The notes beneath the pieces are model-generated. The model had not been told where the DNA came from, did not search any database, and saw only the letters and a program-made list of their open reading frames with translations. From Piscinibacter sp. (lineage in GTDB: Bacteria; Pseudomonadota; Gammaproteobacteria; Burkholderiales; Burkholderiaceae_C), in assembly GCA_017983795.1 (NCBI GenBank), contig JAGOAS010000004.1, forward strand, positions 124,001 through 188,000: DNA of 64,000 nucleotides, in the 5' to 3' direction. Numbering within the stretch: position 1 is the first letter of the stretch; each line of letters begins with the position of its first letter. The translations under genes were made by a program, and so were the position numbers. Positions 1-1,853 of the stretch are shown here, piece by piece.

Positions 1-713
1 AACAGCTCGGGGTTGACCGCGCCGTCCTTCACCGCCATCAGAAAGCCGGCGAGGCCTGCGAGGCTGCCGCCGATCACGAACGCGGCGAGCTTGTAGCCGT
101 AGGTGCGAAAGCCCGCCGCGCGCATGCGCTGCTCGTTGACGCGGATGCCGGCCAGCGCATGGCCGAGGCGCGAGCGCGCGATCAGCGCCAGCAGGCCGTA
201 GGTGAAGGCGAGCGCCGCCAGCACGAGGTAGTAGAAGTGCGCCTTGTCGTCGAGGTCGAGCAGGGTGCGGCTGCCGATGGCGAGCACCGGCTTGCTGTAG
301 AGAAAGATGCCGTCGCTGCCGCCGCCGAGCTTGGTGTCGTGGAAGACGAAGTAAGCCATCTGCGCGAAGGCCAGCGTCACCATGATGAAGTAGACGCCGC
401 TGGTGCGCAGGCTGAGCGCGCCGACGAAGAGCGCGTAGAGCGCTGCGGCACCCATCGCCGCCGGCAGCAGCCACAGCAGCGAGGCCGGCCCGGCATCGCC
501 CGTGGCCAGCACGGTGACGTAGGCCCCGATGCCGAAGAAGGCCGCATGGCCCAGGCTCACCAGGCCGGTGCTGCCCACCAGCAGTTCGAGGCTGAGCGCG
601 AAGATCGCGAACACGGCGATCTTGAGCACCAGGTCCTGCGTATAGGGCGTCAGCACGGTTGGCAGTGCGGCGACTGCAATGAGTGCGATGACAGGGGCGA
701 TCCAGGTTCGCAT
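1..713 (-). CDS. livM: LivM-type ABC permease, partial (left edge)
   Basis: Inner-membrane permease subunit of a HAAT-family (branched-chain amino acid or aromatic acid) ABC importer; it would pair with the LivH-like protein encoded just upstream to form the translocation channel. The first 237 codons are present (starts MRTWIAPVIA) and the C-terminus lies beyond the left edge. The frame is strongly hydrophobic and carries the LivM-type stretch TGLVSLGHAAFFGIGAY near residue 50. It is the third gene of a minus-strand livK-livH-livM operon, and livG/livF probably follow outside the window. It is separated from livH by 267 bases holding two large hairpins, which is unusual because liv permease genes normally abut. 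Confidence 0.9.
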   Translation of the reverse strand, partial: MRTWIAPVIALIAVAALPTVLTPYTQDLVLKIAVFAIFALSLELLVGSTGLVSLGHAAFFGIGAYVTVLATGDAGPASLLWLLPAAMGAAALYALFVGALSLRTSGVYFIMVTLAFAQMAYFVFHDTKLGGGSDGIFLYSKPVLAIGSRTLLDLDDKAHFYYLVLAALAFTYGLLALIARSRLGHALAGIRVNEQRMRAAGFRTYGYKLAAFVIGGSLAGLAGFLMAVKDGAVNPEL

Positions 714-742
714 CTCAGTCGCCCCACTGCCACCACCGAGCG

Positions 743-937
743 CGGCGAGGCCGGGGCCTGCCGGTCTGTGCGCGGCCCGATATCCGTGCTCGACCGGCAG
801 GCCCCGGCCTCGCCGTGCCACCACCGGGCGCGCCCAAAGAATGCGCAGTGCACCGCTGCTGCCACAGCGCTGGCCTGGGGGGCTGGGCGAGCACGGATAT
901 CGGGCCGCGCACAGCCCAGCCCCCCAGGCCAGCGCTG
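743..937. repeat. Paired 24-bp hairpins with mutually complementary 25-nt loops
   Basis: Two perfect hairpins lie between livH and livM. Hairpin 1 has arms 743-766 and 792-815 (24 bp) around loop 767-791. Hairpin 2 has arms 865-888 and 914-937 (24 bp, a different sequence) around loop 889-913. The two 25-nt loops are exact reverse complements of each other, so the region can fold as two local stem-loops or as one long L/L' hairpin. The sequence TGCCACCACCG(A/G)GCG is repeated directly at 728-742 and 816-830, flanking hairpin 1. No T-run follows, and the element sits inside an operon, so a plain terminator is unlikely. Confidence 0.9.
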
Positions 938-980
938 CGCTCCGGCGATTGCATGAAGGGCGAGGGCGCGCGCAACAAGC

Positions 981-1853
981 TCAATGCCCTCGCTTCATCA
1001 AGCCCTCGGGCCGCCACACGAGCACGATCGCCATCAGCAGGTAGACGCCGATGCCGCTGTATTCGGCGAAGAACACCTTGCCGAAGGTGTCGACGAAGCC
1101 GACCAGCAGCGAGGCGATCAGCGCGCCGCTGATCGAGCCGATGCCGCCGATCACCACCACCACGAAGCAGATGATCAGCACGCTGCCGCCCATGCCCGGG
1201 TACACCGACGACAGCGGCGCGGCGATCATGCCGGCCAGCGCCGCCAGCGCCACGCCGCCGGCGAACACGATGCGATAGAGGCGCTGGATGTCGATGCCCA
1301 GGCCGCGCACCATGTCGCGGTTGCTGGCGCCGGCGCGGATCATCATGCCGAGCCGGGTGCGGTTCACCACCCAGTACAGCGCCACCGCGAGCACGATGCA
1401 GGCCACCGAGGCGAACACGCGGTACCAGGGGTAGCTCATCAGCTCGCCGAGCTTGAAGCCGCCGGCCAGCCAGGCCGGCGCCTGCACGCCGTGCACGTCG
1501 TTGCCGACGGTCAGCGAGCGCAGTTCCTCGAACACCAGGATCAGCGCATAGGTCATCAGCACCTGCTGCAGGTGGTCACGCTGGTAGAGGAAGCTGAAGA
1601 AGGCCCATTCCAGCAGGTAGCCGAACAGCGCCGCGAGGATCACGCCGGCCAGCAGCTTGCTCAGGTACCAGTCGCCGAACCAGGGCGCCAGCACGAAGGC
1701 CAGGTAGGCGCCGATCATGTAGAAGCTGCCGTGGGCGAGGTTGATCACGCCCATGATCCCGAAGATCAGCGTCAGGCCACTGGCGACCAGGAACAGCAGC
1801 AGGCCGTACTGGACGGCGTTGAGGCACTGGACGAGGAAGGTGGCGAGATCCAC
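981..1853 (-). CDS. livH: LivH-type ABC permease
   Basis: Inner-membrane permease of the HAAT importer family, 290 residues, the normal LivH length. It is hydrophobic throughout. Near the N-terminus it has the LivH signature IFGIMGVINLAHGSFYMIGA, and near residue 225 it has the conserved VVVVIGGIGSISGA loop that contacts the ATPase. It starts 10 bases after livK ends and is clearly co-transcribed with it. The next gene (livM) is delayed by the paired-hairpin element. The substrate cannot be read from the permease; the neighbouring catabolic genes make an aromatic or acyl carboxylate plausible. Confidence 0.93.
   Translation of the reverse strand: MDLATFLVQCLNAVQYGLLLFLVASGLTLIFGIMGVINLAHGSFYMIGAYLAFVLAPWFGDWYLSKLLAGVILAALFGYLLEWAFFSFLYQRDHLQQVLMTYALILVFEELRSLTVGNDVHGVQAPAWLAGGFKLGELMSYPWYRVFASVACIVLAVALYWVVNRTRLGMMIRAGASNRDMVRGLGIDIQRLYRIVFAGGVALAALAGMIAAPLSSVYPGMGGSVLIICFVVVVIGGIGSISGALIASLLVGFVDTFGKVFFAEYSGIGVYLLMAIVLVWRPEGLMKRGH

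Follow-up and report, generated by a model that had tools for sequence, protein, structure and literature searches.

The livH-livM junction and its double hairpin

The window, i.e. the whole stretch of 64,000 nucleotides of Piscinibacter sp. DNA that was analysed, begins with two genes of a liv operon read from the minus strand. The upstream gene livH (981..1853, minus strand) and the downstream gene livM (3..713, minus strand, running off the window) are both branched-chain amino acid permease genes and both matched the Pfam family BPD_transp_2. The ATG start codon of livM is found at 711-713 on the minus strand, in agreement with the LivM start in relatives such as G001 and G007. From the gene order, the gap between the two genes is probably transcribed.

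This gap holds a double-hairpin element (738..942, minus strand, given here as locus L001) which lies on the sense strand of the liv operon and belongs to a repeat family. It is closed by an outer stem of 5 bp (738-742 with 938-942) that is conserved in the alignment of 12 copies, and this stem encloses the A hairpin (743..815, minus strand), a spacer (816..864, minus strand) and the inverted B hairpin (865..937, minus strand). An earlier note on this DNA had described two perfect 24-bp stems with exactly reverse-complementary 25-nt loops between livH and livM, and both were found as described: the stem of A pairs 743-766 with 792-815 around the loop 767-791, the stem of B pairs 865-888 with 914-937 around the loop 889-913, each stem has 0 mismatches and the two loops of L001 are exact reverse complements. 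The 25-nt loop is itself mostly paired internally, in 7 pairs that leave an 8-nt apex, CCCGATAT. For the sense RNA of 714-984 the predicted folding energy is -204.5 kcal/mol, where 200 shuffles average -151.2 (z -10.1), and the predicted fold is a four-way junction of the outer stem, the B arm, a weak central arm given by the spacer (which differs among copies) and the A arm. Moreover, the L001 pair are the only mismatch-free stems of at least 24 bp among the 25 longest of the 51 inverted repeats listed for the window. Taken with the fold score, this places the L001 hairpins far beyond chance.

A reading frame also runs through the whole element. This bridging ORF (715..984, minus strand, 89 codons) begins at a weak TTG start overlapping the livH stop, where TTG is the only start available and no ATG is present, and it ends with a TGA one base before the ATG of livM (TGAGATG). 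It contains an in-frame ATG at 952-954, and its frame can be followed without a stop further upstream to a GTG at 1017. The livM frame in turn stays open beyond the livM start, across the A hairpin, as far as a GTG at 824 that lies within the element and from which an extended LivM may start.

A dispersed repeat with conserved pairing

The search of the genome and its relatives which the earlier note had proposed revealed a dispersed repeat, and both this dispersal and the through-running frame had been overlooked there. Using a 201 bp query, 8 full-length and 3 partial copies were found in the own genome (G000), giving 11 loci (8 full pairs and 3 decayed) of a double-hairpin repeat of ~205 bp. 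The loop core occurs 19 times in G000 at ≤3 mismatches, always within these 11 loci, and in the same genome a covariance model built on the hairpin unit matched 21 times, corresponding to the 19 units and two opposite-strand repeats. With stricter filters the same model found nothing in 199 other sampled genomes of the family. Piscinibacter aquaticus (G005) presumably lies outside these 199, since it carries copies and yet gave no match there. In a BLAST search of 40 relatives, P. aquaticus was found to carry 4 full copies and G002 a single 38-base match; a weak additional place in G005, L042, is without the loop. The exact loop pattern was likewise found at 4 paired places in Piscinibacter aquaticus KACC 15278 (VOPW01000001), and elsewhere among genome contigs at three lone places in unrelated taxa, which are taken as chance. 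At ≤2 mismatches in 399 family genomes, a list from which G005 is absent, the pattern occurred in the own genome and in 5 others, with one lone place each. An origin from plasmids, phages or viral contigs was rejected, as BLAST of the element against plasmids and phages and the exact loop pattern in viral contigs gave no match. Hence the hairpin pair is one copy of a dispersed double-hairpin repeat and no unique riboswitch. The two stems, earlier called unrelated, are so within L001, but across the genome each belongs to a recurring hairpin type (A or B). Rfam gave 0 matches above the gathering score for L001, the one locus searched, in keeping with the view that the element has no name, although its kind, a palindromic repeat like REP, BIME or MITE, is known.

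Several copies have lost parts. L009 is without part of A and L010 without most of B, while their respective orthologues in P. aquaticus, L035 and L034, keep both hairpins, and L011 is a B/A fusion in which the left arm of B is joined to the outer arm of A, a hybrid that reads as a deletion. L009, L010 and L011 each still carry a short bridging ORF.

The hairpin structure proposed for the liv operon was found to be conserved across the copies. In an alignment of 26 hairpin units, which excludes L011B as a deletion fusion, 18 of the 31 analysed pairs have changed both partners and still pair, the proportion of cells that pair is 96.1% (79.5% in shuffles), and the covariation score of 0.377, against 0.090 when shuffled, is reached by 0/500 shuffles. 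Seven of the 31 pairs sit within the 25-nt loop around its 8-nt apex, and loop positions 8-19, for instance, pair as G-C in 16 units and as C-G in 9. The outer stem GAGCG/CGCTC (5 bp) is paired in most of the 12 aligned copies. According to these alignments, each hairpin preserves or repeatedly perfects its own internal pairing, which is not the case between the loops. The A and B loops of the 12 full pairs are identical in 2 (L001 and L003), show 1 difference in 1 (L007) and lie 2-4 positions apart in 9. The kissing-loop or one-long-hairpin switch put forward earlier is therefore unsupported, and riboswitch or kissing loops were rejected, because loop complementarity is not retained while the pairing inside the loop largely is. 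The suggested DNA inversion fared no better: in every one of the 12 full pairs A is followed by an inverted B and the arms match, and with 0/12 inverted an invertible structure was rejected.

The residual stem mismatches, read on the unit strand, comprise 13 C.A and 2 G.T (p 0.007; L010A, L031B and L035B, with misregistered arms, excluded from the tally), and A and B behave alike though they lie on opposite strands. This strand bias is counted as weak, since several mismatches are shared between copies and are not independent. The spacer length is in phase (2 mod 3) in 8/12 full pairs (p 0.056), and no claim is made on it.

Insertion sites and bridging reading frames

The repeat was found between co-directional genes in 14/15 copies, and 13/15 have one orientation, with B beside the upstream stop and A beside the downstream start. 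The two others are L008, reversed between co-directional genes, and L006, between convergent genes. The neighbour pairs identified by Pfam include livH/livM, an acyltransferase with a cytidylyltransferase, two permeases of dppB/dppC type, NnrS/SirB, ferredoxin-oxidoreductase subunits, two ABC permeases and livG/livF. Among the 25 proteins scanned against Pfam, 6 had no match, namely both neighbours of L004, two bridging ORFs, the protein downstream of L010 and, at L005, a 76-aa fragment of gene 2 that is cut short by a masked stretch. Gene 2 of L033 and gene 1 of L034 appear frameshifted as assembled in P. aquaticus.

At livH-livM, the conservation among close relatives on which the earlier note had staked its reading was found to be absent, as the livH and livM matches are adjacent and the element is missing in 7/7 congeners; stem pairing is nevertheless conserved among the dispersed copies. 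The junctions of these congeners are short or overlapping, except in G007, which carries a different hairpin repeat. In P. aquaticus the element is missing at livH-livM and present at livG-livF, a junction of the same operon that is tight in G000, G007, G001 and G004 and that holds a G007-like hairpin repeat in G003. Further, the element is missing from dppB-dppC and plsC-cdsA in G005, G007 and G001. Many of the empty sites are tight (ATGA, TGATG, TGACATG). The clearest is dppBC: GAAATGAGCGCG, with the stop/start overlap ATGA, is the sequence of the empty site in G005, and that of the filled site is GAAATGAGC / element / GACATGAGCGCC. The boundaries of this insertion likely represent a short duplication of the junction. 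A direct-repeat permutation over 13 copies found no excess (p 0.77), and a general target duplication is unsupported. Two insertions are common to both species (L009/L035 and L010/L034), which indicates that some insertions are old; at these two sites deletions have removed parts of the G000 copies.

A frame was scored as bridging when its start codon lies at -1 to +6 relative to the upstream stop, no stop interrupts it across the element and it terminates at -14 to +1 relative to the downstream start. Such an ORF was found in 11/14 co-directional copies, L006 with its convergent genes lying outside the tested set, against 1.75 expected from shuffles of the intergenic stretches that keep the dinucleotides (tail 1e-11). 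When orthologous pairs are merged, about 9/12 independent sites bridge. The start is ATG in 9 of these ORFs, GTG in L011 and TTG in L001, and the upstream stop of L034, where the upstream gene appears frameshifted, was set by likeness to L010. L007, L008 and L033 do not bridge; in L033 alone of the three the frame continues into gene 2. In 12/13 ORFs one and the same frame covers the A hairpin (9 by script, with L009, L011 and L034 added by reading the peptides), with p <=5e-5 when shared descent is disregarded; for the B hairpin a single frame is used in 8/12. The elements have only 0-2 stops per frame on either strand, and hence the junction pair and the frame, rather than openness, form the telling part of this result. 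In the B arms no excess of third-codon-position change was found (variable columns 13/31 at the third position, 9/30 and 13/30 at the others), so selection on the peptide is unsupported.

The hairpin repeat of G007 at livH-livM, TGAAATG...CACTGAGATG, is unrelated to the double-hairpin element. Its core GCTCACTGCGTTCGCTGCCCCCC was found at 14 places in 60 genomes, and we know of no name for this repeat. A bridging ORF is present at 9/10 of its junctions against 1.99 expected from dinucleotide shuffles. These 10 junctions comprise 9 of 12 extracted stretches and the liv junction of G007, and they exclude L119, whose downstream start is unclear, L120, which lacks a downstream gene in the same direction, L126, which holds the 16-mer but no hairpin, and livG-livF of G003, which reads in frame into livF and is hence not bridging. 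The automated set was weaker, with bridging in 6/11; it holds 15 loci, 4 of them without a callable neighbour, and its bridging loci L133 and L136 repeat earlier ones. In several genera the second repeat stands at stop/start junctions with bridging ORFs of 24-30 codons (L117, L118, L121-L125, L127, L128, L130, L131, L137 and L086, the last being livH-livM of G007). The sole exact core of the second repeat in the own genome, L135 (G000:C30:7282-7300), lies at a gene end and has no bridging ORF. In comparison with the double-hairpin element, the second repeat is alike in its position at stop/start junctions and in its bridging ORF, whereas its sequence is unrelated, its gaps at bridging copies are 73-87 nt and it occurs in several genera. 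That a second family bridges too gives the strongest hint that palindromic repeats in these operons bridge as a rule and not through an accident of one family.

Interpretation and relation to known repeats

In our reading, the double-hairpin element is probably a non-autonomous REP/BIME- or MITE-like repeat of one Piscinibacter lineage, which is tolerated in operons as a translated mini-cistron that restores stop/start coupling. The repeat would insert, or survive, mainly at stop/start junctions of co-directional genes, and the insertion would leave a stop-plus-start junction on both sides of the element; with such junctions on both sides and a stop-poor interior, the element would become a mini-cistron. 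Having finished gene 1, a ribosome could reinitiate at the first junction, translate across the two hairpins and terminate where gene 2 starts. The mini-cistron would keep translational coupling and would shield about 270 nt of highly structured RNA from polarity. We infer from these patterns the mobility of the element, the translation of the ORF and a selection for coupling or for downstream protection. A wider statement, that a class of mobile palindromic repeats exists in this bacterial family, in which unrelated hairpin families insert at stop/start overlaps as translated mini-cistrons so that the operon stays coupled, is put forward tentatively and has somewhat less than an even chance of being correct.

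The element could also be an ordinary selfish REP/MITE-like repeat in which a GC-rich, stop-poor sequence and survival bias at operon junctions produce the open frames and tight junctions incidentally, with no role for translation. The scarcity of stops on either strand, the missing codon-position signal and the decay of L009, L010 and L011 by deletion are in line with such a repeat, but shuffles that keep the composition and dinucleotides give 1.75 against the 11/14 seen and, for the second family, 1.99 against 9/10, and we regard this explanation as unlikely. A role in mRNA stability, processing or differential expression has been proposed for some intercistronic REPs, and the hairpins might act in this manner as an intercistronic RNA element on both genes, which would suit the strong conserved structure and the fixed orientation between operon genes. 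However, the copies are spread over many unrelated operons, one has convergent genes as neighbours, the orthologous operons manage without the repeat, and a translated ORF would mean hairpins melted by passing ribosomes; this makes such a role rather improbable. The riboregulatory switch or invertible element using loop-loop pairing draws on the exact loop complementarity in L001 and L003; with the divergent loops of 9/12 full pairs, a covariation that reflects pairing inside the loop, a uniform order of the arms and no Rfam match for L001 against it, hardly any weight can be given to it.

If the mini-cistron is translated, it would show that selfish palindromic DNA can enter tightly coupled operons and act as a cistron with the downstream gene unsilenced. 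Some of the very short intercistronic ORFs in these bacteria would then be repeat-derived, and the copies would offer a natural test of translational coupling and of ribosomes on very stable stems.

REP and BIME sequences are described as extragenic, dispersed and lineage-specific palindromic units that alternate in orientation, are linked to RAYT transposases and usually number >100 REPs per genome (PMC2817692). The double-hairpin element resembles them in being made of palindromic units in inverted pairs (12 full pairs, A then inverted B) and in being extragenic, dispersed and lineage-specific. It differs in having 19 hairpin units in G000 instead of the usual >100, in units of ~73 nt and in the reading frame through the element. 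The Y1 transposase domain PF01797 was absent from both carriers, G000 and G005 (the latter listed as 77% complete), and positive in 1/8 genus genomes (G004), and a RAYT-mobilised REP was rejected on this negative search in both carriers. In G004, which is without the element, the Y1-type domain is found in a 331-codon open frame (L063, G004:C1:347916-348239). The foot of REP hairpins carries a tetranucleotide such as GTAG, and GTAG was not apparent in the aligned hairpin units. In the open-licence literature, no account of this double-hairpin repeat or of translated intercistronic palindromes was recognised, which is a weak negative result.

Among MITEs, Chunjie is reportedly found inserted in an operon without disturbing it. 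The double-hairpin element is MITE-like in its size, non-coding origin, operon position and short outer inverted repeat of 5 bp (PMC10969869), whereas a general target duplication is unsupported and no autonomous partner was identified by searching the loop core and PF01797. The Rickettsia palindromic elements (RPEs) are described as palindromic repeats of ~150 bp that are readable as protein in a largely constant frame and form in-frame fusions inside genes (PMC10969869). Our element shares with the RPEs a palindromic repeat readable as protein in a largely constant frame, but its ORF is a separate cistron between genes, and L033 alone reads in frame into its neighbour.
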